From Parapedobacter luteus (GTDB lineage Bacteria; Bacteroidota; Bacteroidia; Sphingobacteriales; Sphingobacteriaceae), in contig NZ_FUYS01000002.1 in assembly GCF_900168055.1 (NCBI RefSeq), forward strand, positions 620,888 to 684,887: a DNA stretch of 64,000 bases, in the 5' to 3' direction. The notes below the pieces were generated by a model. That model did no database searches. It was not told where the DNA came from and saw only the letters and a list, made by a program, of their open reading frames with translations. Within the stretch, counting starts at the first letter, position 1; each line of letters opens with the position of its first letter. Below, piece by piece: positions 40,305 to 62,739 of the stretch. Position numbers and translations under genes: made by a program.

Positions 40305-40326
40305 GATAGAAAGGATTCCTTTGTTG

Positions 40327-40414
40327 CGGAGAGGGCGGGATTCGAACCCGCGATACGCTCAACACGTATACACACTTTCCAGGCGTGCTCGTTCGACCAC
40401 TCTGACACCTCTCC
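40327..40414 (-). tRNA. tRNA-Ser (GGA anticodon)
   Basis: The 88-base minus-strand sequence folds as a class II tRNA. The acceptor stem is GGAGAGG/CCTCTCC with discriminator G, the anticodon loop contains TGGAAAG (anticodon GGA), there is a long variable arm (GTGTATACGTGTTGAGCGTATC region), and the T loop is GGTTCGAATCC. CCA is not encoded; CAA follows. It reads UCC and UCU serine codons. It has its own promoter and terminator. Confidence 0.95.
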
Positions 40415-40476: not shown

Positions 40477-41385
40477 TCAATGTCCTCCGCCCTTACGTAT
40501 CTTGAACACATGCAAGATAGCCGGGAATATTGCGTCCATGGTTTCGCGTACGCCCTTCGGAGAACCGGGTAAGGTGATAATCAACGTGTCTCCCATAAAC
40601 CCAGCTATCCCCCGCGATAACATGGCCAGTGCCGTGCGCTCTTGGCCATAACGCCGGGCAGCTTCCATCACGCCGGGTATTTCTTGATCAAGCAAAGGCT
40701 TAATCGCTTCGGGAGTGACGTCACGGACGGATAATCCTGTCCCCCCACTGAAAAGGACAAGGTCATATCCTTGCGCATGTAGACGCATTGCTGTCTCCTG
40801 GATTTGGCTCACTTCGTCCGGCACAACGGTAAATTCGCTGGGCGCTATCTCCCATTGTTGCAGCATATCGACCAGCACCTTCCCCGACACATCGGTTTCA
40901 AGTCCGGCCGAAATGCGGTCGGAGCAAATCACCACCGCACACTTGAAGCCAGGCAGTACGGCCACCTTATGATCCGACTTGCCCCCGCGTTTACTTTCAA
41001 GCCTTACGGACTTTATTTCCAGTTCTTTATCAATGGGCTTCAGCATATCATACAGCGTAAGCGCTGTTATCATTGCCCCATGCATAGCTTCGACCTCCAC
41101 GCCTGTTTTGTAGATGGTATGCACTTCAACCCGGATTTCTATCAACTGGTCCTCCATGCGGTAGGTGATAGCTGCATATTCAATGGGCAACGGATGGCAA
41201 TCAGGGACCACATCGCTGGTTTTTTTAATAGCCAACAGGCCGGCTGCACGGGAAAATTCAAGTACATCTCCTTTCGGTACGCTTCGCTCCTGTACGGCCC
41301 GGATTGTTTCCGCATTCGAGACTTTCACGGTCGCCAGCGCAATTGCCTGGCGGAGCGTCGTCGTTTTGTGCGTAATGTTTACCAT
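40477..41385 (-). CDS. MoaC-MoaB fusion, molybdenum cofactor synthesis
   Basis: The protein has 302 residues from the ATG at 41383-41385. Residues 1-150 are MoaC (cyclic pyranopterin monophosphate synthase), with PDCHPLPIEYA, VEAMHGAMITALTLYDMLKP and LESKRGGKSDH. Residues about 155-302 are the MoaB/MogA fold (molybdopterin adenylylation), with VICSDRISAG, LFSGGTGLSVRDVTPEAI and ITLPGSPKGVRE. One chain thus covers an early and a late step of cofactor synthesis. It is the last gene of the 12-gene run and starts one base after the moaE stop. Confidence 0.93.
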   Translation of the reverse strand: MVNITHKTTTLRQAIALATVKVSNAETIRAVQERSVPKGDVLEFSRAAGLLAIKKTSDVVPDCHPLPIEYAAITYRMEDQLIEIRVEVHTIYKTGVEVEAMHGAMITALTLYDMLKPIDKELEIKSVRLESKRGGKSDHKVAVLPGFKCAVVICSDRISAGLETDVSGKVLVDMLQQWEIAPSEFTVVPDEVSQIQETAMRLHAQGYDLVLFSGGTGLSVRDVTPEAIKPLLDQEIPGVMEAARRYGQERTALAMLSRGIAGFMGDTLIITLPGSPKGVRETMDAIFPAILHVFKIRKGGGH

Positions 41386-41386
41386 G

Positions 41387-41827
41387 TTATTGATTTGTCT
41401 TCCATTGGTATTCTTCGCCTGCAAAGTGCTCTTTGCCCCAGATAGGCAGTTCACTCTTTATACGCTCCACAAGCTCCCCGCACGCGTCCATGGCCGGACG
41501 GCGATGGCCCGCGGCCGCAAGTACAAAGAGACAAATTTCACCCGCCAAAACGGTGCCCAAGCTATGCTTCACCACGATTCCATTCAGTGCATAGCGCTGG
41601 CAGACGTCAACGGCAATCGCCTCCAGATGCTCGTCAACCATAGCCGTATACGCTGTATATTCAATGGCTGTTACCGACTTCCCTCCAACAACGTCTGCCC
41701 GTACCTGACCGATAAAACAGGAGTACGCCCCCACCGTCGTTTCAGCGGCGTATTGTTGGACGCATTGGGCGACCATCGTAGCCGGAATGGCGCCTTGCAC
41801 AAAAATCGGTTTTGCAGTTACTCCCAT
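41387..41827 (-). CDS. moaE: Molybdopterin synthase catalytic subunit
   Basis: The 146-residue MoaE places two sulfurs on precursor Z to make molybdopterin, working with MoaD. Typical segments are GAYSCFIGQVR near residue 33, AIEYTAYTAMVDEHLEAIA, KHSLGTVLAGEICLFVLAAAGHRRPA and the C-terminal ELPIWGKEHFAGEEYQW with the catalytic Lys. It lies between moaD and the moaC-moaB fusion on the same strand. Confidence 0.95.
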   Translation of the reverse strand: MGVTAKPIFVQGAIPATMVAQCVQQYAAETTVGAYSCFIGQVRADVVGGKSVTAIEYTAYTAMVDEHLEAIAVDVCQRYALNGIVVKHSLGTVLAGEICLFVLAAAGHRRPAMDACGELVERIKSELPIWGKEHFAGEEYQWKTNQ

Positions 41828-41885
41828 GTTGTTATATCATTACTTTGATAAGATGCACGCGCCGTCATGCGCCACTTCTCCTAAC

Positions 41886-42128
41886 CTAACCACCCGAAAA
41901 AGGCGGTAAGAAGGCTATCTCGGCGTGCGTAGCGAGCCGCGTATTTTGGCGAACGATTTTCCGGTCCACGGCGATTACATAGGTAGCCTTTTGGAGCGCC
42001 GGATATCGCGTGTAAAGCCACCGCAAAAGCTCATCTGTATCATCCACCTGTGGTGCGCCCACGTTTGAACAGCCCGTAAGCTCGATCAGCTGCCCGAAAA
42101 ACTGTACTGATAACGTATTACTCACCAT
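41886..42128 (-). CDS. moaD: Molybdopterin synthase sulfur carrier subunit
   Basis: The 80-residue ubiquitin-fold protein ends in the obligatory Gly-Gly (LPPFSGG), which is activated and thiocarboxylated to deliver sulfur to MoaE. The conserved FLPPFSGG tail and length match MoaD. The start overlaps the TauE-like gene end by 7 bases. No moeB-like activating enzyme is seen in the window, so that step must be encoded elsewhere. Confidence 0.93.
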   Translation of the reverse strand: MVSNTLSVQFFGQLIELTGCSNVGAPQVDDTDELLRWLYTRYPALQKATYVIAVDRKIVRQNTRLATHAEIAFLPPFSGG

Positions 42129-42862
42129 ACATTCGGTAAAAATAACTTAAATGAAGCCACAGCCAATACCATGGCCAATAAAAATTTTATCGTTCGCTGC
42201 TGAAAACGCAAGGCTCCGAAATACGATCCCAACAGTCCACCCGAAAAAGCAATCACTACATATGCCGCCATGTCCGAATCGAAGGAAACACCTTGGTTAA
42301 GCTGTCCTGCCAGGCCCGAAAGCGAATTGGCGAAAATAAACAAAGCGCTGATGGCTGCAGCTTGCTTCTGGTCCGCCCAAGCCAGCAATAACAAAACAGG
42401 AGATAGGATGATACCACCGCCGATACCCAGTATTCCTGAAAGCAAACCGATTGTGGCGCCGACGAGCAACAACCATACGGTCTTGGGGTTGGCCGTACCG
42501 TCCACCTTGATGTCGCTAAAAAACAAGAAGCGGACAACAGGTATCAGCAGGAATATACCAAGCATCTTCTTATAAGCATCCGAATGTAGCGCCAGGCTCC
42601 CCCCCACGAATGCCATTGGCACGGAAGCCAGTGCCAGCGGGATGAACAGCTTGCGATTGAAGTAATGCCCCCGGTAATAAAAAATAAACGAAGTCAACGA
42701 AACAAAGAGATTAAGTAATAACGCAGTAGGTTTCATGATTTCCGGCGTCGCACCGAACAACGCCATAAGCGCTAAATAACCGCTGGCACCACCGTGACCG
42801 ACAGACGAATACAAAAAAGCTACACAAAAAAGCAATAGATAAAACCAAAGTATATTATCCAT
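42122..42862 (-). CDS. TauE/SafE-family transporter inside the molybdenum-cofactor run
   Basis: The protein has 246 residues from the ATG at 42860-42862, with about seven membrane segments and family motifs FLYSSVGHGGASGYLALMAL and GILGIGGGIILSPVLLLL. Known members export sulfite or related anions. Its ends overlap moeA by 8 bases and moaD by 7 bases, which binds it tightly to cofactor synthesis. Possible roles are moving molybdate or removing a sulfur by-product; neither is shown by the sequence. Confidence 0.85.
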   Translation of the reverse strand: MDNILWFYLLLFCVAFLYSSVGHGGASGYLALMALFGATPEIMKPTALLLNLFVSLTSFIFYYRGHYFNRKLFIPLALASVPMAFVGGSLALHSDAYKKMLGIFLLIPVVRFLFFSDIKVDGTANPKTVWLLLVGATIGLLSGILGIGGGIILSPVLLLLAWADQKQAAAISALFIFANSLSGLAGQLNQGVSFDSDMAAYVVIAFSGGLLGSYFGALRFQQRTIKFLLAMVLAVASFKLFLPNVW

Positions 42863-44057
42863 AATGGGGCAACAGGTGTATATCGACTTTCTCATTCGCT
42901 TCATAATGCCGTTCCGTTTCGTCGAGTACGACAAAGCAGTTGGCAACGGCAAACGTACGCATCCGATAGGATTCCTGGGCTGGGAGGATGGCCACATATC
43001 CATCTCGGTACAAGCCCTTGAGAAAATGCGTAAGCTGGTTGTTTTTTTTATACGCTGCGGCCAGCGGCACTTGCAAAACCGTCAATAAATCGTTATGCCC
43101 TGTAAGCCTGCGCAGCACCGGCCATACGTATTGATAGAAACAGGTCAATACGGACGATGGGTTCCCCGGCAATCCAAACACCGGTTTGTTGTTTTTCCGA
43201 CCCGCGAAAAGCGGTTTCCCCGGCCGTTGTTTAACGCGATGGAACAATTGTGTTATACCGCAGTGCTTAGCCGCTCTCACCACAAAATCGTATTCACCTA
43301 CACTCACCCCGCCAGTAAGCAAGACCACATCCGATACCTGCAAAGCGATGGCCAGCGCTTCGGCTGTCGCTTCAAAAGTGTCCGCCGTATACTGAACTGA
43401 TACATCCGTGATTCCCATCTGAGCCAGTGCCGCCCGCAGCATCGACGAAGATGCTTCGTATACTTGACCATGTGATAAGGTTTCACCCGGTTGTTTCAGT
43501 TCGTCACCCGTAATAATCAATGCAACAACCGGTGGTTCATAAACAGTTACCCTATCGCACCCCACTCCCGCAAGGAAACCCACAGCTGCAGCGCTAAGCG
43601 GCGTTCCGTGTGCCAATGCAACTTCTCCCGCATTGATTTCGGCACCTCGGATCCGGACATGGTCACCCCGCTTTATATCCGCTTGATTAATATGCAGCTG
43701 ACCACCGATCACTTCGGCACGTTCCTGCATGACCACTGTGTCTGCGCCTTCCGGCAGTGGAGCACCGGTGAAGATGCGTGCGGCCTGGCCCTGCCCTATC
43801 GCTATCCGGTCGGCCATGCCGGCTGGCACTTCACGGATCACAACCAACGGATCGCGGGGCTTCCATTCGTTATAGGCAAACGCGTAGCCGTCCATCGATG
43901 ACTGGTCAAAGGCCGGCACGTCTACTTGTGCACAAACGTTTTCCGCCAGCACGCGCCCAACGGCTTCAGGCAGCGCCTTGCATGCCGTCTTTGCATGGAA
44001 GTTTTGGTGTGCTAAGATGGTCTTAGCCTCAGATACTGAAATAATTTGATCGCTCAT
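42855..44057 (-). CDS. moeA: Molybdopterin molybdotransferase
   Basis: The 400-residue MoeA inserts molybdate into adenylylated molybdopterin. Conserved parts are VDVPAFDQSSMDGYAFA near residue 45, RIFTGAPLPEGADTVVMQE, SSSMLRAALAQMG, LTGGVSVGEYDFV and VFGLPGNPSSVLTCFYQYV. The length matches the family. It follows moaA by 9 bases. Confidence 0.96.
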   Translation of the reverse strand: MSDQIISVSEAKTILAHQNFHAKTACKALPEAVGRVLAENVCAQVDVPAFDQSSMDGYAFAYNEWKPRDPLVVIREVPAGMADRIAIGQGQAARIFTGAPLPEGADTVVMQERAEVIGGQLHINQADIKRGDHVRIRGAEINAGEVALAHGTPLSAAAVGFLAGVGCDRVTVYEPPVVALIITGDELKQPGETLSHGQVYEASSSMLRAALAQMGITDVSVQYTADTFEATAEALAIALQVSDVVLLTGGVSVGEYDFVVRAAKHCGITQLFHRVKQRPGKPLFAGRKNNKPVFGLPGNPSSVLTCFYQYVWPVLRRLTGHNDLLTVLQVPLAAAYKKNNQLTHFLKGLYRDGYVAILPAQESYRMRTFAVANCFVVLDETERHYEANEKVDIHLLPHYG

Positions 44058-44066
44058 CGTCTGTCG

Positions 44067-45050
44067 TTATCCCCCGATACTAATCATACTCCGGTTGACA
44101 AGTTTGTCACCCGGCAAGTCTTTGAAGGGTATATCCCCAAATTGACCGCCAAGTCGCTCGGCTTTCCCTAAGATGTTTTTGCGTATGAATTGCTCCAGCG
44201 GTTTGCCGCTACGTAAGGCCGAAAGTAAATCGCTTTCGGTTTTCGAAAATAAGCAGTTTTTCATTTTGCCGTCTGCAGTGAGCCGCATGCGATTACACCC
44301 CGAGCAGAAAGGTGCACTCATTGTACTGATGATAGCAAACGTGCCCTGGTGACCCGGTACCTGGTAAGGTTGGCTTGTTGCATGGGGGTCGTGGCGAAGA
44401 GGTACGGCATGATACTGCTCGGTGACGAGATTCATGATTTCCTGTTTTGGAAAGACCTGGTCGCCGGTCCATCTGTTGCCTTCAAACGGCATAAATTCAA
44501 TGAACCGTACATCGATCGGATCGTCTTTCGTCCATGCCACAAAACCAAGTACTTCATCGGCATTCACGCCATTCATGACCACGGTATTGATTTTTACATG
44601 GAATCCGCGATCAATAGCCGTCCGGATATTACGCATCGTCTGGCTGAATTTATCCCTACGGGTAAGTTGAAAGAACCGCTCGGCAGATAATGTATCCAGA
44701 CTGATGTTGAGACTACGCACTCCAGCCAATTGCAAGGTATCGAGGTGCCGATGAAGCAGTGTAGCATTTGTTGTCAGTGTCAGTTCAACCGGCAATAACG
44801 AAAGGCGCATCAAAATATCATCAAAATCGCGTCTGGCCAAGGGCTCACCACCGGTGAGTCGAATTTTGGTCACCCCCAGACGGACAAATACGGCAGCAAT
44901 CGCTTCAATCTCCGCCGGTTGCATGAGATGGCGCGTTGGCATGAAATCGTAATTTTCATCGGGCATGCAGTAGAAACAACGTAGATTACACAAATCAGTG
45001 AGTGATATACGCAGGTATGTATGATTTCGATCGTATGTATCCAGTATCAT
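44067..45050 (-). CDS. moaA: GTP 3-prime,8-cyclase
   Basis: This 327-residue radical-SAM enzyme begins cofactor synthesis from GTP. The N-terminal cluster motif CNLRCFYC holds Cys21, Cys25 and Cys28. The second cluster is in FCSGCNRMRLTADGKMKNCLF. The chain ends in the functional Gly-Gly tail (MISIGG). It lies between the XdhC-MocA fusion and moeA. Confidence 0.97.
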   Translation of the reverse strand: MILDTYDRNHTYLRISLTDLCNLRCFYCMPDENYDFMPTRHLMQPAEIEAIAAVFVRLGVTKIRLTGGEPLARRDFDDILMRLSLLPVELTLTTNATLLHRHLDTLQLAGVRSLNISLDTLSAERFFQLTRRDKFSQTMRNIRTAIDRGFHVKINTVVMNGVNADEVLGFVAWTKDDPIDVRFIEFMPFEGNRWTGDQVFPKQEIMNLVTEQYHAVPLRHDPHATSQPYQVPGHQGTFAIISTMSAPFCSGCNRMRLTADGKMKNCLFSKTESDLLSALRSGKPLEQFIRKNILGKAERLGGQFGDIPFKDLPGDKLVNRSMISIGG

Positions 45051-45067
45051 GATTCAGCGTAAGTTAA

Positions 45068-46810
45068 TCATACGTTGGCAAATAGTTTGTTATAGGCGTC
45101 CCGGGTATCTACATCCACCGCCCCCAGCGGGAATGCCACAATGGCCACTTCATCGCCGAAGCTTTCAATCACATGTTTGGCTCCTGTGTCTCCGTTAAGC
45201 GCCAACAATAGCGGAAAGACTGATTGATGAAAGAGCGCGGGAACACCTTTCCTTCCCTCGTAGTAGCTGGCCGTAATCGGCGCCGCGGTCAGTCGCTGCT
45301 GGTTTATCAACGCTCGGAGATGTGCTGCGTCTACATATGGTTGGTCGCACAACATAACGATAAGATGTGCCACGTGTGGATGGTGGGTCATGACGTGTCG
45401 CACACCGCATACCAGCGAGGTAGCCATCCCCTCGGCGTAGTCGTTATTTACCACGGTGTCTACGCTGATATCCGCCAACTGTTTTGCCATTGCTGCCGCT
45501 TCGGATCCTAAAACCACAGTTGTGCTTCCTACTCCGGCCTCCAACGCTGCGCTGACGGCATGTTGCAGCAACGTGCGCTCTTGATAGCGCAATTGCTGTT
45601 TGGGTGTTCCCATCCGTTTAGATTCACCAGCCGCCAGCAGGAGCACACCATAGGTTTGCAAGGACGGATTAATGCGGGATTGCCGTTGGTGTATCCTGCC
45701 TGTCAAATCCCGGAGATGGCTGCCACGCCGGCCGGCGAATACGGCCTTTATTTCCGCTACCACAGCCAGGGCGATTTCCTCGGACGTTTCCGCGCCGATA
45801 TCCAATCCAACCGGGCCGTAGACTTGTGCCCGTCTGTCTTGGGGAATGACAATCCCTTCTTCTTCCAACTCGTCCAGCATCCGTTGCCGTTTTTTTACAG
45901 GGCCTAATATCCCAACGTAGCCTGCAAGGCTGCCAACCACCGCCTTGAATATCGCTTTGTCATAGGCATAATTGTGAGACATTAACACAACAGCAGTCCG
46001 CTCGTCGATGCGTACGTTCTGCAACGCTTGCTCCGGTCCCGACACGATGACTTGGCAGTCCGGAAAACGACCGGTATTTGCATAATTAGGCCGGCCGTCT
46101 ATCAAAGTAAGCTCCCATCCCAAAAGTTCAGCCAACCGGGCCAGCGGCAACACATCGTTGCCCGCCCCGGCTATAACTAAAGCTGGCGGCGGCGCCACAT
46201 ATTCGATACAGGCGAGAATAGCGGTTCCCCCCTCTTGCTCGGACTCATAGGCAATGAAAGCGGTGTGTTGTGCCGCCAGCACGCACTGCATATCCTTACT
46301 TATGCGCTCGCATGGCACGAGCGATGTACTGCCCGCTGTATGGATACCTTCCTCCGTCGCTGCGATGGTAGTGCCTTGTCTGCCATTCCTTTTATCGTCC
46401 GGTGTAAAAAACGTGACCAGGGCCGATGGCTGGCGGCTTGCCGCCACGCGCTTCAATAACGAAATAGGTGTCTCTTCAATGTGGCTGGTTAGCGGCTCAA
46501 TCAGTACCCGGATAATCCCATCGCACCCCAGTCCGACGCCCAACACAGAGCCGCCTTCGTCCGAAGTGTCATAAGTGACCAGCATGGGGTGCTCATCCAT
46601 CATCACAAGCAATGCTTTGCGGAGCGCGTCCCCTTCAAGGCAACCTCCACTAATCGCCCCGGTAAGCCGACCGTCTTCGGTAATCAACATGCGTGCACCT
46701 GCACTGCGGTAGGAAGAACCCTCGATATGCACGACAGTTGCCAATGCTGCTTTTTGTTGCTGTTTACAAGCCGTTTCGTAGGCTGCTATAATCTGCTTGA
46801 TTTCTTTCAT
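45068..46810 (-). CDS. XdhC/CoxI-MocA fusion protein
   Basis: The protein has 580 residues in two parts. Residues 1-370 are an XdhC/CoxI family protein (ATVVHIEGSSYRSAGARMLI, AISGGCLEGDAL, with a Rossmann segment LVIAGAGNDVLPLARLAELLGW), which delivers mature cofactor to Mo-hydroxylases. Residues from about 384 are an NTP-transferase of the MocA type (VLLLAAGESKRMGTPKQQL, VVNNDYAEGMATSLVCGV), which makes molybdopterin cytosine dinucleotide. The fusion joins cofactor maturation and insertion in one chain and lies between the cysteine desulfurase and moaA genes. Confidence 0.9.
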   Translation of the reverse strand: MKEIKQIIAAYETACKQQQKAALATVVHIEGSSYRSAGARMLITEDGRLTGAISGGCLEGDALRKALLVMMDEHPMLVTYDTSDEGGSVLGVGLGCDGIIRVLIEPLTSHIEETPISLLKRVAASRQPSALVTFFTPDDKRNGRQGTTIAATEEGIHTAGSTSLVPCERISKDMQCVLAAQHTAFIAYESEQEGGTAILACIEYVAPPPALVIAGAGNDVLPLARLAELLGWELTLIDGRPNYANTGRFPDCQVIVSGPEQALQNVRIDERTAVVLMSHNYAYDKAIFKAVVGSLAGYVGILGPVKKRQRMLDELEEEGIVIPQDRRAQVYGPVGLDIGAETSEEIALAVVAEIKAVFAGRRGSHLRDLTGRIHQRQSRINPSLQTYGVLLLAAGESKRMGTPKQQLRYQERTLLQHAVSAALEAGVGSTTVVLGSEAAAMAKQLADISVDTVVNNDYAEGMATSLVCGVRHVMTHHPHVAHLIVMLCDQPYVDAAHLRALINQQRLTAAPITASYYEGRKGVPALFHQSVFPLLLALNGDTGAKHVIESFGDEVAIVAFPLGAVDVDTRDAYNKLFANV

Positions 46811-46836
46811 CGCTCTTACTGCCCTTCTCCAAAATT

Positions 46837-47997
46837 TTAATCGGCAACCGTTTCTGCCTCCAGGACAGCGTGGGCAAGCCGATCCGCGGCTTCGTCTACC
46901 TCTTCCGCACCGGTAAACCGACCCAAACTAATGCGGATGGTACGACTTGCCTCACCATCGCTCAGCCCCATCGCTTTCAGCACGTGTGACGGTCGCCGAA
47001 CCAGACCGGAGCAGGCGCTTCCCCTGCTCAAAGCCAGGTATGGAGACAAGGAAAGCAACAGTTGTTCTGCATCACCCCGGGGCAACAACAGGTTGCTTAC
47101 GTGGGGCAATCGATCCGCATGCCCATTGACCATTACGTGCGGGACATTGTTCCGCAACCTGTATTCCAGCCTATCGCGAAGTTGTTGCATTGCCGTAGCA
47201 GCCGCCGCCATTTCATAACGGCATAGCTCAGCGGCCTTGCCAAAGCCAACAATGCCGGGGATATTTAACGTGCCACTGCGGAGTCCCCCTTCATGGTCGC
47301 CTCCATGCTGCTGGGGCAGGACGTGTGCCCGCAGTTCGGCGTTCCGAACGACGAGCGCCCCGATCCCCTTAGGTCCGTACAGCTTGTGGGCCGAACAAAC
47401 CAAGAGATCGATGGCATCCGCTCCGGCGTGCACCGGTATTTTGCCGACGGCTTGCGTGGCATCGCAGAGAAAGGGCACGCCATGTTTCCGGGCAATGGCC
47501 CCGATAAGCTTAACAGGATGAATAACCCCCGTCTCGTTGTTGGCATACATGAGCGCGATACAGATGGTATCGTCGCCGATGGAAGCTTCCAGCGCTTTGA
47601 TATCGATTCTTCCCTGCCTATCCACCTCAAGATAAGTAACCCGGCAGCCTTTTGTCTCCAAGTACGCACACGTATCCAAAACTGCTTTATGCTCCGTCTT
47701 ACAAGTGACAATGTGACTATCTCGCCCGGCATTCGCTTCGGCAATCCCTTTGAGTGCCAAGTTGATGGACTCGGTAGCTCCCGAGGTAAAGACCAGATCT
47801 TGCGGGCGGGCGCTAATCAGCCGGGCAACTTGCTCCCGGGCATCTTCAACGGCCTGCTTAGCCTGCCATCCATAGCGATGATCGGCACTTGCAGCATTGC
47901 CGTATTGCTCGGTAAAGTAGGGCAGCATGGCCTCCACCACTCGTGGGTCGCAAGGAGTCGTTGCGTTGTAATCCAAATATATAGGCCGTCGTCCCAT
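46837..47997 (-). CDS. Cysteine desulfurase of the Mo-hydroxylase run
   Basis: The protein has 386 residues from the ATG at 47995-47997, one base after the Mo-subunit gene stops. The start RRPIYLDYNATTPCDPRVV, the PLP lysine in CSAHKLYGPKGIG and the active-site loop LSRGSACSG are those of NifS/IscS enzymes. In this setting it most likely supplies sulfur for the essential Mo=S ligand of the hydroxylases, and perhaps for MoaD. A separate cysteine desulfurase gene at 61603 probably serves general Fe-S assembly. Confidence 0.93.
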   Translation of the reverse strand: MGRRPIYLDYNATTPCDPRVVEAMLPYFTEQYGNAASADHRYGWQAKQAVEDAREQVARLISARPQDLVFTSGATESINLALKGIAEANAGRDSHIVTCKTEHKAVLDTCAYLETKGCRVTYLEVDRQGRIDIKALEASIGDDTICIALMYANNETGVIHPVKLIGAIARKHGVPFLCDATQAVGKIPVHAGADAIDLLVCSAHKLYGPKGIGALVVRNAELRAHVLPQQHGGDHEGGLRSGTLNIPGIVGFGKAAELCRYEMAAAATAMQQLRDRLEYRLRNNVPHVMVNGHADRLPHVSNLLLPRGDAEQLLLSLSPYLALSRGSACSGLVRRPSHVLKAMGLSDGEASRTIRISLGRFTGAEEVDEAADRLAHAVLEAETVAD

Positions 47998-47998
47998 T

Positions 47999-50128
47999 TC
48001 AGGCAAATAATCCACTCTTGACAAATGGTTGCGTCCGAAGGCGCACGCCAGTAGCGGCATAGGCCGCGTTGGCAACGGCGGGTCCAGCCGGAGGCAATCC
48101 CGGCTCACCCAATCCTGTCGGATCGATGTCACTTTCAATAAACTGGATCTCAATTTCCGGGACCTCCGCCATGCGAATCATCCGATAGGTATTGAAATTC
48201 AGCTGGTCCGGCTTACCCCGTGTCAGCGTCAGTTCGGGATACATCGCATGGCCAATGCCGTCTATGATACCGCCTTCCACCACATTTTCAGCACCGCTTT
48301 TATTGACGACAATGCCACAATCGACCGCACAGTATATTCTCTTGATCTTCAACTTCCCATCGTCACGTTTTTCCACTTCGGCTACCTGTGCCACGTAGGA
48401 GTTGAACGAATATTGCGCTGCAACGCCCTGGAATATGTTCGGTCCTTTAGGTGTACCCCACCCGGCCATCGCTGCTGCCTTTTTGATGACGCCAGCAAAG
48501 CGGTCCGGATCGTACTCCAGCTCACCGGCAGGCTGTTGCTTGGCCTGTTCGAGCACCTCCAGCCGGAAGGTCACCGGATCTTTCCCAATGGCATGGGCGA
48601 CTTCATCAAAAAATGACTGTTCCGAAAAAGCAATAAAGTTATGGATGGGGCCTCGCCAAGGAGCAGTGGTCACCGGTGTTTTATACTCCTGCGCATCCAC
48701 CTGCAGGTTAGGTACAGCGCCGGCGGGGAAGCTACCTGCCCGGGCCGGGTTACCTGTCGTACCGACAGACTGATGTTGCCATGCAATAAGCCGGCCGTCG
48801 GCATCCACGGCGGCCTTATACCGATATGTACACATTGGTCGGTAATAGCCGCCCCCCATATCGTCCTCCCGCGACCAAATGAGGTTTACTGGTACCCCCG
48901 CCGTTTTGGATACCAGGGCAGCCTCTTCTACAAAGTCAGACATGAGCCGCCGGCCGAATCCCCCTCCCATACGGGTCATCATCACCGTGACCTTCTCTTC
49001 CGGTACATCCACAAGCTTGGCCACCGTGGCCCGTGTCCGCTCCGGCGTCTGTATCGGTCCGTAAAGCTCCACGCCATCGGCACGTACGTCAGCATAAAAA
49101 TTCATCGGCTCCATGGTGTTGTGTGCAAGGAACGGCGCTTCATAGACCGCCTCGAAGACCTTAGCCGCATTGTTGTAAGCTTGCTGCACATCACCATCCT
49201 TCCGTTGGGGATCACCGGCCGGGCGCCTTGCCACGATTTCCCGGAACTTGCGCTGGTAGTCTGCCGTGCTTTCCATCTGCTCGCCGTCTTCCCATTCAGC
49301 CTTAATTTTCTTCGCTCCTTGCATCACTTCCCAAGTAGACCGGCCCAATACGGCTATCTTGTTATCGATCCGAAGTACACGCTCTACACCTTGCTGCTGC
49401 AACGTTTCGGTATCATCATAGGCTTTGAGTGTCTGGCCAAAAGCGGGTGGCCGCACCAGTGCGGCGTATCTCATCCCTTCGCGTTTGGTATCGATGCCAT
49501 ATTTGTATTGTCCGGTCACGATGGCGCTATTGTCGACATTCGGAATCCATTGGCCGATGATGGCAAAAGATGCGATAGGTTTGACAGGTACATCCTCCGG
49601 CACTTCCAGCGTCGCGGCCCGCTCCACGAGCTCACCATAGCCAAGTTTCCTTCCCGAATCATGGTGGATGACCTGCCCCTTTTCGGTCGTGCAGTCCCCG
49701 GGTGCAACATCCCACGTGGCCGCTGCCGCGTTGATGAGCATCTGCCGCGCGGTAGCTCCCGCTTTGCGGAAAGACTCCCAGCTATCGCGGACTGAGCCGC
49801 TGCCACCGGCGATTTGCCGGCGATATTTGCCGGTATCCAATCCGGCTTGTTCGACCTTGACATCCTGCCAATCGACATCCAGCTCCTCAGCTACCAGCAT
49901 CGGCAAGGCGGTCTTTACCCCCTGGCCAATTTCCGGATTGGGGTTCATCAGGGTAACCTCACCATTGGTGTCTATTTTCACAAATGCGTTCAGTTCGTAT
50001 ATCACGCCGGCTTCCTGCTGCGGCCCACACGAAGAAAAGAGTTTAAAGCCCAATACCAGCCCTCCCCCGGCAAAAGCACTGATCCGTATAAAATCCCTCC
50101 TACTTACGGTATGTTGTTGCGTATTCAT
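47999..50128 (-). CDS. Mo-hydroxylase molybdopterin subunit, IorB-like, Tat-exported (copy 1)
   Basis: The 709-residue protein belongs to the xanthine dehydrogenase family, nearest to isoquinoline 1-oxidoreductase beta subunits. A Tat signal (SRRDFIRISAFAGGGLVLGF) is followed by a Cys (FSSCG), so it may be a lipid-anchored periplasmic enzyme. Cofactor-binding segments include GGGFGRRLMSDFVEEA and APWRGPIHNF. The catalytic Glu is in GLGEPGLPPAGPAV near the C-terminus. It oxidises aldehydes or N-heterocycles by adding oxygen from water; the substrate is not shown. Its [2Fe-2S] partner is the gene just upstream, and no FAD subunit is encoded. Confidence 0.9.
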   Translation of the reverse strand: MNTQQHTVSRRDFIRISAFAGGGLVLGFKLFSSCGPQQEAGVIYELNAFVKIDTNGEVTLMNPNPEIGQGVKTALPMLVAEELDVDWQDVKVEQAGLDTGKYRRQIAGGSGSVRDSWESFRKAGATARQMLINAAAATWDVAPGDCTTEKGQVIHHDSGRKLGYGELVERAATLEVPEDVPVKPIASFAIIGQWIPNVDNSAIVTGQYKYGIDTKREGMRYAALVRPPAFGQTLKAYDDTETLQQQGVERVLRIDNKIAVLGRSTWEVMQGAKKIKAEWEDGEQMESTADYQRKFREIVARRPAGDPQRKDGDVQQAYNNAAKVFEAVYEAPFLAHNTMEPMNFYADVRADGVELYGPIQTPERTRATVAKLVDVPEEKVTVMMTRMGGGFGRRLMSDFVEEAALVSKTAGVPVNLIWSREDDMGGGYYRPMCTYRYKAAVDADGRLIAWQHQSVGTTGNPARAGSFPAGAVPNLQVDAQEYKTPVTTAPWRGPIHNFIAFSEQSFFDEVAHAIGKDPVTFRLEVLEQAKQQPAGELEYDPDRFAGVIKKAAAMAGWGTPKGPNIFQGVAAQYSFNSYVAQVAEVEKRDDGKLKIKRIYCAVDCGIVVNKSGAENVVEGGIIDGIGHAMYPELTLTRGKPDQLNFNTYRMIRMAEVPEIEIQFIESDIDPTGLGEPGLPPAGPAVANAAYAATGVRLRTQPFVKSGLFA

Positions 50129-50182
50129 TTTATATACTGTTTAGTGATGGTTAATCCATGAATTGCATGAGTCCTTCCGGCA

Positions 50183-50638
50183 TTAAGCCCCTTCGGCAGC
50201 CAATTTAATCGCTTTCTTGATGCGATTGTAGGTGCCGCAACGGCAAATGTTGGTCATGGATTCATTGATCGCCTCATCCGTTGGATTTGGATTTTTTTTC
50301 AAAAGCGCCACCGCGGTCATGATTTGTCCCGCCTGGCAATAACCACATTGAGGGACATCGATCTGTTCCCATGCCCGCTGCACGGGGTGGCTGCCATCCG
50401 CGGAAAGACCTTCGATGGTCGTAATCGACTGGTTAGCGGCACTTTCTACAGGGATAGCACATGAACGCACCGCTGCATCGTCGATATGTACCGTGCAGGC
50501 GCCGCATTGCGCGATACCACATCCGAACTTTGTTCCCGTAAGACCGATGACGTCCCGAAGTACCCACAGTAACGGCATTTGCGGGTCTACATCCACTTCG
50601 TATGCCTTTCTGTTGACGGTTAACTGTATTGTTGCCAT
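50183..50638 (-). CDS. [2Fe-2S] subunit of Mo-hydroxylase (IorA-like, copy 1)
   Basis: The 151-residue electron-transfer subunit has a plant-type ferredoxin cluster ([24 protein letters not shown], about 38-60) and a second, helical cluster ([12 protein letters not shown] and [11 protein letters not shown]). It passes electrons from the Mo site to an external acceptor. It has no signal peptide of its own, so it would be exported folded together with its Tat-bearing partner, encoded 54 bases downstream. Confidence 0.94.
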
Positions 50639-50651
50639 ATGAGTTGTTTAG

Positions 50652-52811
50652 TTAGTTCATTTTTAATCCTTGGGGAATCAAGGGCAGCTGATGCAGCCTG
50701 ACGCCCGTTGCGTCGGCGATGGCGTTACGTATAGCAGGCGCAGTCCCGACGATAGGCGTCTCGCCCGCCCCCGCCGACGGAATGTCTTTTTGATCAATCA
50801 GCACAATATCCAGCGGAGGAATATCAGCAAAGCGCGGCACGCGATAAGTAGACAATGTCGGGTTCAAGATGCGGCCATCCTTAAAATCGATGGCTTCGAA
50901 CAATGCACCGCCAAGTCCCTGCAAAATGGCGCCAAGCACCTGATTTTCGAGGTGTTTGGGATTGACGATGGCTCCGCAGTCATAGGCAGCCACCAACCGT
51001 ACGACCTCCAATTGTCCGTTGGCCTGTCCATAGGCCACTTCCGCACACGTAGCGATATAAGAATTTTTGACGAAGCCGCAAGCTATGCCGAAACCATGTC
51101 CCGGAGCCTTCTTCCCTCCCCAGCCAAATCGATCCGCAGCCGCCGTCAATACGCCGCGCATGCGTACATCGGTCAATTGACTTAACCGGAACTCCAGTGG
51201 ATCGCGCTGCAATAGCCTTGCCAAGTCATCCACCATGCATTCGATGGCAAATACATTGGCCGTAGCGGCCAATGCCCGATATGACCCCTGCCTAAGCGGC
51301 GTCCGCGATGGATGGTACCGGATGTGCTTCACGCCCGCCTCATAAGGGAGATCGATGCCTGCGTTGCCTGAATTATAATTATGGAATTCCCATGAAGCAA
51401 TGGTGCCATCGTCCTTCAATGCGGCAGCCACCTCGATGAGCCCAGCCGGCCGGAAATAGGCCCACTTGAACTCCTCTTCGCGGGTCCAAACGATTTTCAC
51501 CGGTTTGCCTACTACTTTGGCCAGCCGTGCCGCTTCCAGGGCGGCCTCACCACTATGCTTGCCACCATAAGCCGAACCCGTATCAGGCATAATCACCCGC
51601 ACCTGTTCCTTGGCCAGGGAAAACGCCCCTGCAAGCTCTTCCTGTACCCCAAAAGGCCGTTGTGTGCCAGTCCATACCGTCAACTGGCCGTCGTTCCATT
51701 CCGCTATGGCGGCCCGGGGTTCCAAGGGTACATGCGCGATATACTGCACTTCCACCCGATGTTCCAACCGGTGTGTTGAAGCCTCAAATAAACGGCGGGC
51801 CTCCTGTCGATCGTCTTCATCCCCCCCACCGTGCCGTGCATTGTCTTTGAGGTAAGCGAAGAGTTCCGCTTTTGACGGTTGCGGCGTGGTATTCCATTGC
51901 GCTGCTATACGGGCTAATGCATTGGCTGCGGTTTGCGGATCCGGGGCTGTCACGCCAATAAAATCAGCTGTTTGGACAACCGTTACATGGGGCATCGCTT
52001 TTGCCTTTGTTACATCCACGGCAGCCAGCGTCGCCCCATAGGCGGGAGGTCGGAGTATTTTCCCATAGACCATATCGGGCAGTACCATATCCGACGTATA
52101 TTGGTGTTTGCCCGTAACGAAGTCCCGCCCGTTTATTTTAGGGATCGACGTGCCTGCCACTGTCCATTGCTCAGCTGCGGTCAGCGTTACCGCTTCATTT
52201 ATCGGTATCAGCAACTTCTCCCCACGGGTGAGGGTCCCATACGCCAACGTTTTGCCCGATGAGCCATCCACAATTTTTCCGGCTTCCGCCCGCAATGCCG
52301 TGGCGGGCACTTTCAATGCTTTTGCTGCTTTTTCCAGCAGCGCTTCCCGGAGGGACGCGGCGGCTTTGCGCAGTTGCGGGCCCATATAGGGTGTCGTGCG
52401 ACTGCCGAAGGTGCCGGCATCGTAAGGTGTCAGTGATGTATCGCCCATAATGAGCGCTATGTGTTGTATAGGTACAGCGAGTTCTTCGGCCACCACCTGC
52501 GCCAACGACGTCCGGATATTCTGGCCCACCTCTACTTTGCCGGTAAACACGGACACGCTGCCATCTTCATGGATATGTATCCAGGCAGCAATGGTGTTTT
52601 CATCTGCGGCCAACTGCTCGCTCACCGGTGGCGCGTCCGACCAACCGTATACGCATGACTGGGATAGGGCGACCGCGATGCCACCACCAAGCAGACGAAA
52701 AAAATTTCGCCTGGTAACGACCTTACTGGAAGTGGCTATCCTTAACCGGTCCGGCGTTTCTTCCGGATATCGTATGGAGTTTTCCATGGTTGTCATGGTC
52801 AATTTGTCCAT
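50652..52811 (-). CDS. Mo-hydroxylase molybdopterin subunit, IorB-like, Tat-exported (copy 2)
   Basis: The 719-residue paralog of the protein encoded at 47999. The Tat signal (VTRRNFFRLLGGGIAVALS) starts near residue 33 and is followed by a Cys (QSCVYG). Other marks are the cofactor segment GSAYGGKHSGEAALEAARLA, RQGSYRALAATANVFA, and a catalytic Glu in GAGETPIVGTAPAIRN. Sequence similarity between the two copies is clear but moderate, so they probably have different substrates. It lies 13 bases before the copy 1 [2Fe-2S] gene and 14 bases after its own partner. Confidence 0.9.
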   Translation of the reverse strand: MDKLTMTTMENSIRYPEETPDRLRIATSSKVVTRRNFFRLLGGGIAVALSQSCVYGWSDAPPVSEQLAADENTIAAWIHIHEDGSVSVFTGKVEVGQNIRTSLAQVVAEELAVPIQHIALIMGDTSLTPYDAGTFGSRTTPYMGPQLRKAAASLREALLEKAAKALKVPATALRAEAGKIVDGSSGKTLAYGTLTRGEKLLIPINEAVTLTAAEQWTVAGTSIPKINGRDFVTGKHQYTSDMVLPDMVYGKILRPPAYGATLAAVDVTKAKAMPHVTVVQTADFIGVTAPDPQTAANALARIAAQWNTTPQPSKAELFAYLKDNARHGGGDEDDRQEARRLFEASTHRLEHRVEVQYIAHVPLEPRAAIAEWNDGQLTVWTGTQRPFGVQEELAGAFSLAKEQVRVIMPDTGSAYGGKHSGEAALEAARLAKVVGKPVKIVWTREEEFKWAYFRPAGLIEVAAALKDDGTIASWEFHNYNSGNAGIDLPYEAGVKHIRYHPSRTPLRQGSYRALAATANVFAIECMVDDLARLLQRDPLEFRLSQLTDVRMRGVLTAAADRFGWGGKKAPGHGFGIACGFVKNSYIATCAEVAYGQANGQLEVVRLVAAYDCGAIVNPKHLENQVLGAILQGLGGALFEAIDFKDGRILNPTLSTYRVPRFADIPPLDIVLIDQKDIPSAGAGETPIVGTAPAIRNAIADATGVRLHQLPLIPQGLKMN

Positions 52812-52825
52812 GGGATCTTCTTTTG

Positions 52826-53266
52826 CTAAACGTTACTTATGGCCTCGATGATGCGCGGATAAGCGCAGCAACGGCAGATGTTTATTTGCATGGCATCAAT
52901 AATCTCCTGCCGGCTTGGCTTAGGACTTTTATTGGTTAAAGCGACTGCCGAAATAATCATTCCGGACGTACAATAAGCACATTGAAAGGCGTCTTCATCC
53001 AGGAAAGCTTGCTGCACCGGATGGAGCCGGCCGTCTTTCGCCAACCCTTCGATCGTGACCACTTCTTTGTGCTGAACGCTACCGACGGGCGTAATACATG
53101 ACGCCGTAGCATGCCCATCAATGAGCACCCGGCACGCCCCGCATATTCCCTCTCCGCAGCCATATTTACTGCCCGTAAGTTTCAGGTGTATCCGTAAGAC
53201 ATCCAGTAAACTGGTATTCTCCGGCGTATCGATATCATATTCATTGCCATTTATGTGGAGTTTCAT
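52826..53266 (-). CDS. [2Fe-2S] subunit of Mo-hydroxylase (IorA-like, copy 2)
   Basis: The protein has 146 residues from the ATG at 53264-53266; a longer reading passes through the promoter. Cluster motifs are KYGCGEGICGACRVLIDG, FQCAYCTSGM and NICRCCAYPRI. It is the first gene of the 12-gene run and pairs with the Mo subunit encoded next. It carries no export signal. Confidence 0.94.
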   Translation of the reverse strand: MKLHINGNEYDIDTPENTSLLDVLRIHLKLTGSKYGCGEGICGACRVLIDGHATASCITPVGSVQHKEVVTIEGLAKDGRLHPVQQAFLDEDAFQCAYCTSGMIISAVALTNKSPKPSRQEIIDAMQINICRCCAYPRIIEAISNV

Positions 53267-53313
53267 AAGCAGGAAGTTAATGAGTCGGCACCGCTTTATT
53301 TGATACGTGAAAT

Positions 53314-53345
53314 CAAATATAACAGTAACGGCGAACTTATGCAAA
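53314..53345 (-). promoter_or_regulatory. Promoter of the Mo-hydroxylase/cofactor operon
   Basis: The minus strand has TTTG (53345-53342), 20 bases, then TATATTTG (53321-53314): a full match to the Bacteroidota consensus. The leader to the first ATG would be about 43 bases. Confidence 0.75.
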
Positions 53346-56233: not shown

Positions 56234-57574
56234 ATGCATATACATCAATTTTACGACAAAGGGTTGGCACAAGCTTCTTATGCCATCATAAGCGAGGGTC
56301 AGATGGCTTTAATCGACCCGGCACGCAACCCAAAGTCCTATTTGGATTATGCCGCGGAGCATCAAGCAACAATCGTTGCCGTCATTGAAACCCATCCGCA
56401 TGCTGATTTTGTCAGTGGACATCTGGAACTGCGTCAACTCACGGGAGCAACCCTTTATACCAGCAAGCTAGTCGGCGCGGAGTATCCGCACGTTCCTTTT
56501 GACGACGGCGACCAGCTTGCGCTTGGCAAGTTAGTATTACGGGCCATCAATACACCTGGGCATTCGCCCGACAGCATTTGCATTTTGCTCGTTGACGAAA
56601 ATGATAAACCTCACGCAATATTTACGGGCGATACGCTATTTGTCGGCGACGTAGGGCGGCCTGATTTACGAGAAAATGTGGGAAACATCACTGCGAAAGC
56701 GGTGGCATTGGCCAAACAGCTATACCGTTCCACTCGGGAGAAGCTGATGACGCTGCCGGCTGACGTGCTGGTTTACCCAGCGCATGGCCCCGGCTCCCTT
56801 TGCGGCAAAAATATGGGCGACGATCTGACCAGTTCCGTTGGGCGGGAGATCCATCACAACTATGCCCTGCAACCGATGAGTGAAGATGAGTTTGTAGCAT
56901 TAATTATCGAACAGCAGCCGTTCGTTCCGGGCTACTTTGAATACGACGTGATGCTCAACAAGAAAGGTGCTCCTGCATTCGAGGCAAGCATTGAAGCGGC
57001 TCCCTTGCTCAACAGCCCTGCTGAAATTAGCGCGGGTATCCTTATCGTTGACGGCCGGCCGCAGGATCAATACCGTGCCGGGCATTTACCCGGTAGCATC
57101 AACATACCGGACGGACTGCGATTTGAAACATGGCTGGGCACGATTGTCCAACCAAATGAAGTGTTTTACTTATTGGGTGGGGACCGCCAGCAGCTGCGGA
57201 CGCTTCTCGAGAAGGTTGCCAAGATTGGTTACGAGCAGCAGGTGAAGGGACTACTGGCAATTACCGATGGAGCAGCGCAGACCACCCCGTTTAACAAGGA
57301 GCATTTTATAGACCACCAACAGGATTACACCATTGTGGATATCCGCAATCGCCATGAGGTGTCGTCCAATCCGATTTTTAATGAATCCATTAATATACCC
57401 TTGAACGAACTTCGCTCGCAAGCCCATCTTATCCCGGCTACCCGCCCTATTGTCGTGCATTGCGCGGGAGGATATCGATCGGCAATCGGTTCAAGTATCC
57501 TTGCGGCTACGTTGGCCGATACGGTTATACAGGATATGAGTACAGCTATTCTGGATTTTTCTCCTGGAAAATGA
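56234..57574 (+). CDS. CstB-like persulfide dioxygenase with two rhodanese domains
   Basis: The 446-residue protein has three domains. Residues 1-235 form a metallo-beta-lactamase fold with the ETHE1-type iron site (THPHADFVSGH, residues 53-63; GHSPDS; FTGDTLFVGDVGRPDL). Residues about 260-350 are a rhodanese with no active-site Cys (YLLGGDR in place of CxxGxR). Residues about 355-446 are a rhodanese with Cys in VHCAGGYRSA. This MBL-pseudorhodanese-rhodanese order is that of S. aureus CstB, which oxidises persulfides to thiosulfate. An ATGA overlap couples it to the next gene, a further rhodanese. Confidence 0.9.
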   Translation: MHIHQFYDKGLAQASYAIISEGQMALIDPARNPKSYLDYAAEHQATIVAVIETHPHADFVSGHLELRQLTGATLYTSKLVGAEYPHVPFDDGDQLALGKLVLRAINTPGHSPDSICILLVDENDKPHAIFTGDTLFVGDVGRPDLRENVGNITAKAVALAKQLYRSTREKLMTLPADVLVYPAHGPGSLCGKNMGDDLTSSVGREIHHNYALQPMSEDEFVALIIEQQPFVPGYFEYDVMLNKKGAPAFEASIEAAPLLNSPAEISAGILIVDGRPQDQYRAGHLPGSINIPDGLRFETWLGTIVQPNEVFYLLGGDRQQLRTLLEKVAKIGYEQQVKGLLAITDGAAQTTPFNKEHFIDHQQDYTIVDIRNRHEVSSNPIFNESINIPLNELRSQAHLIPATRPIVVHCAGGYRSAIGSSILAATLADTVIQDMSTAILDFSPGK

Positions 57575-61602: not shown

Positions 61603-62739
61603 ATGCAAGTATATTTAGACAATGCAGCCACCACGGCGCTCGACCCCGAAGTCCTCAGCGCCATGGTGGAAACGATGGAAAAATATTATGGTAATCCTTC
61701 GTCCATCCATGCGCATGGCAGGCAGGTAAAGGCCATCGTCGAACAGGCACGTAAGACGGTAGCAAGATTGCTAAACGTGGCCCCCGCCGAGATTTTTTTC
61801 ACATCAGGAGGCACCGAGGCCGACAATACGGCCATCGTACGCGGCATTATCGATCATGGCATCACCCACGCCATCACCTCCCCGTTGGAGCATCATGCGG
61901 TATTACACACACTGGAAGAATTGCAAAAAAGCGGCGTTATCCGCCTCACCCTGCTTAACGTTGATCAGCAAGGGCGTGTAGACCTCCACCAATTGGAAAA
62001 ATTATTGAGCGAAAGCCCGCGTTCATTTGTATCGTTGATGCATGCCAATAACGAAATTGGCACCTTGACAGACATCGAGTACGTGTCGGCACTCTGTAAA
62101 CAATACAATGCGCTTTTCCATTCGGATACGGTGCAAACCATGGGGCACTATGTGCATGACCTGGCGAAGTTGCAGATCGATTTCGTGACGGGCGCTGCGC
62201 ATAAATTCCATGGCCCGAAAGGCGTCGGATTTCTTTATGTAAATCACAACACGAAAATCAAGCCTTTCATTTATGGCGGGGCACAAGAACGCAATATGCG
62301 TGGAGGCACCGAAAATGTCTATGGCATCGTCGGATTGGCCAAAGCGCTTGAGCTCGCCTATGCACACATCGACGAACACCGCCAATACATTCAAGGATTA
62401 AAGGATTACATGATCGCTCAGCTGAAAGCGTCCATCCCGGACATTCGTTTCAATGGAGACATCAGTCCCCAAAACAGTCTGTATACGGTGCTTAACGTTT
62501 CATTTCCCTGTACCGACATTGCGGATATGATGTTATTCAACCTCGACATTTCGGGTATTTCCGCCTCCGGCGGAAGCGCGTGCAGTTCGGGTTCGGACAT
62601 CGGTTCGCATGTGCTCAACGCTATAGGGTCTGACGCCAAACGGCCCTGCGTCCGGTTCTCGTTCTGCAAAAACAACACCCGTCAGGAAATTGATTTCGTG
62701 GTGGGCAAACTACGCGAACTCTGCCTGGAAAAAGCATAA
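61603..62739 (+). CDS. Cysteine desulfurase, IscS/NifS type
   Basis: The 378-residue PLP enzyme starts MQVYLDNAATTALDPEVL. The PLP lysine is in GAAHKFHGPKGVGF, and the active-site Cys loop SGGSACSSGSDIGSHVL marks the longer, IscS-like loop. It takes sulfur from cysteine for Fe-S clusters and tRNA modification. No iscU or scaffold genes are adjacent. It is distinct from the desulfurase encoded in the Mo-cofactor run. Confidence 0.94.
   Translation: MQVYLDNAATTALDPEVLSAMVETMEKYYGNPSSIHAHGRQVKAIVEQARKTVARLLNVAPAEIFFTSGGTEADNTAIVRGIIDHGITHAITSPLEHHAVLHTLEELQKSGVIRLTLLNVDQQGRVDLHQLEKLLSESPRSFVSLMHANNEIGTLTDIEYVSALCKQYNALFHSDTVQTMGHYVHDLAKLQIDFVTGAAHKFHGPKGVGFLYVNHNTKIKPFIYGGAQERNMRGGTENVYGIVGLAKALELAYAHIDEHRQYIQGLKDYMIAQLKASIPDIRFNGDISPQNSLYTVLNVSFPCTDIADMMLFNLDISGISASGGSACSSGSDIGSHVLNAIGSDAKRPCVRFSFCKNNTRQEIDFVVGKLRELCLEKA

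Follow-up and report, generated by a model that had tools for sequence, protein, structure and literature searches.

A molybdoenzyme operon of Parapedobacter luteus with a TauE/TSUP protein as predicted molybdate importer

We analysed a 64,000-nucleotide stretch of Parapedobacter luteus DNA (here the window; contig NZ_FUYS01000002.1, positions 620,888 to 684,887) and found a dedicated molybdoenzyme operon whose TauE/TSUP protein is a predicted inner-membrane molybdate importer, a reading to which we assign a probability of about 0.82. Encoded between moeA and moaD, this permease would serve as a single-polypeptide stand-in for ModABC. The reading draws on five computational observations: the gene content of the operon, the single moaA of the genome, membership of the permease in a separate clade, the complementary distribution of that clade and ModB, and an empty tauE slot in ModB-bearing sister operons. 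A preliminary description of the operon had given the TauE-like protein no role and listed molybdate import as missing; given the alternation with ModB, that gap was probably wrongly called. More broadly, these permeases are likely to form a new class of importers dedicated to molybdate, one that has been swapped with ModABC many times, is the commonest route in Bacteroidia making molybdenum cofactor (Moco), occurs on some proteobacterial plasmids and, in some species, works behind a TonB-dependent receptor.

Distribution and gene context of the permease clade

Genomes were counted as Moco-making if they have moaA, and two samples were used: 150 relatives, and 396 genomes of the class (Bacteroidia, to judge by the named relatives) at a completeness of at least 90%, with 40 Moco-making genomes common to both. 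A moaA call required at least 250 bits in the first sample, where 60 of the 150 genomes exceeded the curated cut-off and 16 more scored 257-283 bits; in the second it required an E value of 1e-45, and 191 of the 195 genomes so called also exceeded the curated cut-off. For ModB the second sample used an E value of 1e-25, which brings in 10 genomes that fall short of the curated cut-off, 9 being Moco-making. For the permease we built a profile (A1) from 38 Moco-linked TauE open reading frames (ORFs) in mapped neighbourhoods; divergent or unlinked sequences (genomes G005, G051, G070, G106, G128, G142 and G047) were left out, and the profile recovered them. A1 split its matches cleanly: 53 of them, from 52 of the 150 genomes, scored at least 152.9 bits, and the remaining matches listed scored no more than 55.5 bits. 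Three TauE calls in the second sample came from fragments (G213, G265 and G279).

Among the 76 Moco-making genomes of the first sample, 51 carried only TauE, 22 only ModB (a count that includes G112, whose 151 bits fall short of the curated cut-off), one both (G043) and two neither (G126 and G147); the 74 genomes lacking moaA had neither the TauE clade nor ModB. Because the idea arose in this sample, it was tested on the 396 genomes, where TauE was present in 143 of the 195 Moco-making genomes: 142 had TauE only, 42 ModB only, one both and 10 neither. With the strict ModB cut-off these numbers became 143, 34, 0 and 18. The held-out part, comprising 155 Moco-making genomes, gave 115 with TauE only, 30 with ModB only, one with both and nine with neither (Fisher p 6e-23), and the union of both samples (n = 231) gave 166, 52, 2 and 11. 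Within the host genus, moaA scored at least 250 bits in six of nine genomes (G000-G008, of which G000 is the host) and XdhC-MocA was found in three; all six moaA-bearing genomes carried the tauE clade, and ModB exceeded its cut-off in none of the nine.

The alternation recurs among close relatives. In the second sample, the TauE and the ModB state occur side by side within eight genera and twelve families. On a MoaA tree of 76 unselected Moco-making genomes, 14 independent pairs differed in TauE, and ModB differed in the opposite direction in 12.4 of them on average and in the same direction in none (p ~5e-4); another tree test used 93 rows, 18 of them picked as mixed-genus or neither genomes, and the main test was confined to the unselected 76. 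In three genera the usual slot has no tauE in genomes that carry ModB. In genus g36, two genomes (G101 and G256) have moeA-tauE-moaD, and moeA is joined to moaD in the ModB-bearing G179 and G233. One genome of genus g13 (G041) has no tauE in the operon common to its sisters and carries modA, modB and modC divergent from xdhC, and one of genus g15 (G076) lacks tauE, unlike its sisters, with modABC on another contig.

MOT1 (PF16983), a known molybdate transporter family according to PMC5840216 and PMC6147048, was searched for in 12 genomes, namely the host and the 11 genomes with neither TauE nor ModB. Two-repeat MOT1 proteins of 383-429 amino acids were found in five of the 11. In three the gene lies within ~5 kb of moaA: in G257 and G397 it adjoins the moeB of the Moco cluster, and in G147 it is ~5 kb away. 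In G212 and G428 it is on a different contig from moaA. Another of the 11, G126, is 69% complete.

Of the 52 TauE genomes of the first sample, 37 had tauE among Moco genes within the fetched stretch. A gene for a TonB-dependent receptor ends 4 bases upstream of tauE in three clusters (L055:5395-7392, L094:10615-12612 and, in two ORF pieces, L080:7058-8902), and a further receptor lies ~4 kb from tauE in L138; receptors were sought with a single query at E 1e-8, with which unlike ones would be missed. Such a neighbour fits import and suggests a possible outer-membrane route for molybdate or a molybdophore. On plasmids, the order moeA, moaA, moaB, moaC, moaD, moaE, tauE was seen in Moraxella osloensis, and in Pseudosulfitobacter moeA and tauE come after the genes of an enzyme with two subunits, whose annotation reads 'arsenate reductase (azurin)'.

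A small, probably exported protein with a worn-down sulfite-oxidase-like fold was also seen: some genomes encode it beside tauE, others no more than 0.8 kb from modB, and PF00174 exceeded its cut-off in two of seven. Its loci are as follows:
Small sulfite-oxidase-like protein: L055:4156-4656, L080:5816-6319, L059:5180-5725, L151:7560-8072, L146:7533-8042, L116:6523-7035 and L138:499-1122
Weaker matches: L042:10886-11422, L084:8024-8524 and L093:8891-9424

The operon and its cofactor supply

The operon comprises twelve genes at 40477-53266, all on the minus strand and of the families named in the preliminary description. They are 1 to 58 bases apart except where they overlap (moeA/tauE by 8 bases and tauE/moaD by 7), and with these overlaps tauE looks translationally coupled to moeA, the gene that uses molybdate. 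The features, in the direction of transcription, are:

53314-53345, minus: candidate Bacteroidota-type promoter, TTTG-N20-TATATTTG
52826-53266, minus: iorA1, [2Fe-2S] subunit of Mo-hydroxylase 1 (PF01799, PF00111), start by translation
50652-52811, minus: iorB1, Mo-binding subunit 1 with twin-arginine motif TRRNFF (PF20256, PF02738)
50183-50638, minus: iorA2, [2Fe-2S] subunit of Mo-hydroxylase 2 (PF01799, PF00111)
47999-50128, minus: iorB2, Mo-binding subunit 2 with twin-arginine motif SRRDFI (PF02738, PF20256)
46837-47997, minus: IscS/NifS-type cysteine desulfurase, which presumably supplies sulfur to XdhC (PF00266, 272.9 bits)
45068-46810, minus: XdhC-MocA fusion, predicted insertion and sulfuration chaperone plus synthesis of the cytosine dinucleotide form of Moco (MCD) (PF02625, PF13478, PF12804)
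44067-45050, minus: moaA (TIGR02666, 331.8 bits), the sole copy in the genome
42855-44057, minus: moeA, molybdate insertion (PF03453, PF00994, PF03454)
42122-42862, minus: tauE-like gene for a TSUP permease of 246 amino acids (SVGHGGAS clade), predicted to import molybdate (PF01925, 118.2 bits; profile A1)
41886-42128, minus: moaD, with C-terminal GG (PF02597)
41387-41827, minus: moaE (PF02391)
40477-41454, minus: ORF of a MoaC-MoaB fusion, likely start ~41385 (NF002947, 381.8 bits, above cut-off)
40326-40414, minus: tRNA-Ser(GGA), directly 3' of the operon

The one-directional block with its short gaps and overlaps was thus borne out, with three starts corrected because the earlier calls were too early: iorA1 starts at ATG 53266 and not TTG 53344, the cysteine desulfurase at ATG 47997, one base past iorB2, and MoaC-MoaB probably near 41385. 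Two further genes of the window were noted. A metallo-beta-lactamase-rhodanese fusion on the opposite strand (56234-57574), upstream of the operon, is perhaps a sulfur-handling enzyme, and a second cysteine desulfurase-like gene lies at 61603-62739 (195 bits against the operon copy).

Both enzymes have a separate [2Fe-2S] subunit and a MoCoBD-type large subunit that starts with a twin-arginine motif, and the operon has no gene for a flavin adenine dinucleotide (FAD) subunit, an absence that is normal for IorAB-type enzymes. Among solved structures, the closest to either large subunit is 8gy3_C, the large subunit of an aldehyde dehydrogenase. The domains of XdhC, MocA and a cysteine desulfurase occur together, the set expected for enzymes with a sulfurated MCD cofactor. 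Judging by family membership, MoaA, MoaC-MoaB, MoaD/MoaE and MoeA would make Moco; the XdhC-MocA fusion would convert it to MCD and, aided by the cysteine desulfurase, sulfurate and insert it, and the two IorA/IorB pairs would be exported through the twin-arginine translocation (Tat) system. The earlier view, in which one self-contained operon provides two Mo-hydroxylases of Tat type together with their sulfurated MCD cofactor, is well supported.

A search of the host genome found one moaA and two PF02738 matches, both inside the operon; the only PF00384 match, at 26.6 bits, comes from a protein resembling QrcB/QrcC, and such proteins of quinone reductase complexes are not known to bind Moco. 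With one moaA and no PF02738 enzymes beyond those of the operon, the cofactor serves these two enzymes as far as tested. 'Nearly self-contained' holds to the same extent, with sulfite-oxidase-family enzymes outside the search, and the second complete Moco gene set that would have spoken against it is not apparent, the only moaA being that of the operon.

The preliminary description had also noted the lack of a MoaD-activating enzyme. Terrimonas and Chitinophaga skermanii share the order xdhC-mocA-moaA-moeA-tauE-moaD-moeB-moaE-moaCB (L034, L037), which several further genomes of that family also show, with genes fused or split. The moeB gene between moaD and moaE is present in many relatives and absent from the window and from the nearest named relatives of the host, P. 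koreensis and P. tibetensis; the P. tibetensis operon is split in two (L043, L079), with tauE staying beside moeA and moaD. Absence from the operon therefore stands, and the likely answer lies in the host thiamine cluster, where a 452-amino-acid MoeB/ThiF-rhodanese protein, encoded near the genes for ThiC and thiamine phosphate synthase, probably charges MoaD too.

As to transcription, the single consensus promoter proposed earlier has its motif at 53345-53314. Promoter-type matches in the window numbered 3 where 1.37 are expected by chance, and because this does not clearly exceed expectation the promoter is plausible, not proven. Consensus scans for signals that might split the block gave no clear excess of either internal promoters (19 against 15.3 +/- 4.4 expected) or terminators (19 against 16.0 +/- 3.8). 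A search for a Moco riboswitch returned none at Rfam gathering thresholds, the sole match being the tRNA.

Sequence and predicted structure of the permease

The window protein matched PF01925 only, at 118.2 bits against a cut-off of 32.6 (residues 56-287 of the long ORF), which places it in the TSUP/TauE family. Moco-linked TauE proteins separated from TauE paralogues encoded in the same or related genomes with 98/96 support (38 against 18 rows); when divergent and plasmid rows were added, the branch holding all of them had 92/97 support, and the Moco rows did not form one clade apart from the plasmid rows. The usual motif of the clade is SVGHGGAS, at which place 16 of 18 paralogues carry a GGGGSILTVP variant, and four residues (His23, Ser27, Asn51 and Lys239) are shared by all 38 Moco-linked proteins, whereas none of the 18 paralogues has them at the corresponding positions. 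BLASTP of the window TauE against the paralogue in its own genome gave nothing significant. A second Moco-linked sub-clade (L081:18561-19358, L096:6672-7487, L098:7427-8215, L136:7356-8114) may differ in substrate preference.

A confident AlphaFold model built from the alignment (mean predicted local distance difference test 87.2, predicted template modelling score 0.85) shows two halves, each with a Gly-rich stretch that opens a short helix: residues 20-27 (SVGHGGAS; helix 26-35) and 146-155 (GIGGGIILSP; helix 150-159). Because helix N-termini often hold oxyanions, these helix starts are the likely site, and molybdate would likely sit near both stretches in the model. An internal repeat was weak by profile (P 0.019, probability 2.5%). 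A sequence search for a solved structure of a TauE relative found none at E 1 or better, and Foldseek with the model found none at E <=0.001, its best matches being BacA/UppP (6fmt, E 4.8e-03; 5oon, 3.3e-02). VIA-align 2 also ranked BacA first (5oon, Z 10.3, root-mean-square deviation 4.8, 233 aligned; first row of the next family, Z 5.3). Between helical proteins, Z scores below ~13 may reflect nothing more than a widespread arrangement, so the resemblance of the model to BacA/UppP is within the range of chance.

Alternative readings and relation to known systems

Transport by TauE, its direction and its oxyanion specificity are predicted, and three other explanations bear on them. The family name suggests that TauE might export sulfite or another sulfur compound released by sulfur transfer for Moco or by enzyme sulfuration, which would suit the cysteine desulfurase and XdhC of the same operon. 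We regard this as quite unlikely: tauE also occurs in clusters without those genes in the fetched stretch (moaA-moeA-tauE-moaD-moaE-moaCB; G101, G256), and a sulfite exporter is not predicted to be nearly always absent where ModB is present (both in 1 of 195 and 1 of 76 genomes) or to be absent from the five MOT1 genomes. The complementary distribution with ModB thus disfavours the role that the annotation implies. Import of tungstate, or of sulfate with molybdate as a by-product, is unlikely too, though it has a precedent: PMC11535334 describes a Pseudomonas fluorescens TauE homologue, TK06_RS10770, that restores growth of E. coli dcysA on sulfate and concludes that it is a sulfate importer. 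The TauE family can therefore carry a tetrahedral oxyanion inward, and gene counts cannot separate molybdenum from tungsten. What speaks for molybdate is the tight link to Moco genes together with the ModB alternation in operons for xanthine-oxidase-family enzymes, which are molybdenum enzymes. Finally, TauE and ModABC both cluster by genus, as they would if they merely marked different lineages and TauE had an unrelated role in Moco clusters; this is very improbable given the mixed states inside eight genera and twelve families, the 14 independent pairs with none in the same direction, and the sister operons in which that slot has no tauE.

Several observations nonetheless weigh against molybdate import by the clade, or limit its reach. 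Both transporters occur in G043, where one Moco cluster has tauE and another modB, and in G461, where ModB scores 122 bits; in the second sample, TauE was also present in one of 201 genomes lacking moaA (G183) and ModB in six. The host genome itself favours the importer reading, with no match to the ModB model TIGR02141 over the cut-off and PstC and PstA as the two weak matches; this negative applies to that model, no separate search having been made with WtpB and TupB models. The host also has a 558-amino-acid ORF with one PF16983 repeat (33.2 bits, cut-off 30), not the two of MOT1, which is a probable SulP protein and might leak molybdate. Five neither genomes stay without a transporter of the kinds searched for: G221 has no PF16983 match, and G353, G380, G393 and G442 have single-repeat matches of 29-34 bits, three over the 30-bit cut-off, in ORFs of at least 520 amino acids; four of the five assemblies have >200 contigs, and G380 about 100. 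Of the 52 TauE genomes in the first sample, G047 has tauE ~9 kb from xdhC and 14 have it outside the fetched Moco stretch, four of these within 0.9 kb of a moeB/thiF-family gene. SVGFGGGS or SAGFGGGS replaces SVGHGGAS in the second sub-clade, and with Phe for His in four of the five extra divergent Moco-linked sequences, His23 is not strictly conserved across the clade. Four other plasmid relatives examined sit outside Moco clusters; an SVGQAGGT relative on an Agrobacterium plasmid (L212:6986-7729) comes after the genes for arsenic resistance, is read in the same direction as that operon and perhaps carries another oxyanion, an Emticicia relative adjoins nhaA and a TonB receptor, and two plasmid relatives lie among unrelated genes. 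From these settings the wider clade may comprise anion carriers with several substrates.

We found no link between TauE/TSUP and molybdate in Moco operons in the open-licence literature, and prior work in other journals is possible; the available portions of PMC6147048, PMC5840216, PMC11582611, PMC7266159, PMC11535334, PMC12758843 and PMC10102598 contain none, and the Flavobacterium Moco operons described in that of PMC12758843 have no transporter named in them. According to a survey of molybdenum use, 278 of 3683 molybdenum-using bacteria had no known transporter and further uptake systems may exist (PMC6147048); the TauE clade could explain part of these. Genes of the clade are commonly annotated as sulfite exporters, for example on plasmids, so that molybdate import, if true, would mean a large-scale correction of annotation and would provide a single-gene importer for molybdoenzyme work.

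The operon itself is another member of an already known arrangement, with enzymes and cofactor genes of known kinds, and the new part is the predicted function for a clade of a known permease family. Its enzymes share domains, a Tat motif and XdhC/MocA-type maturation with periplasmic Mo-hydroxylases of the IorAB and PaoABC types; PaoABC has an FAD subunit, whereas the operon enzymes have none, and here two pairs share one operon with nearly all Moco genes. Compared with TSUP/TauE-SafE proteins (PF01925), the window permease is of the same family and size but belongs to the separate SVGHGGAS clade, with molybdate import predicted in place of sulfite or sulfonate export. Import of an oxyanion by a TauE-family protein has its parallel in TK06_RS10770, a Pseudomonas protein found through complementation of sulfate assimilation (PMC11535334); the parallel is one of described function, not of sequence. 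ModABC has the same predicted role and niche as the TauE clade and a complementary distribution, but it is unrelated, and TauE has neither a binding protein nor an ATPase. MOT1 is likewise a single-polypeptide molybdate transporter and fills the same niche in five genomes, but belongs to a different family, with two PF16983 repeats.

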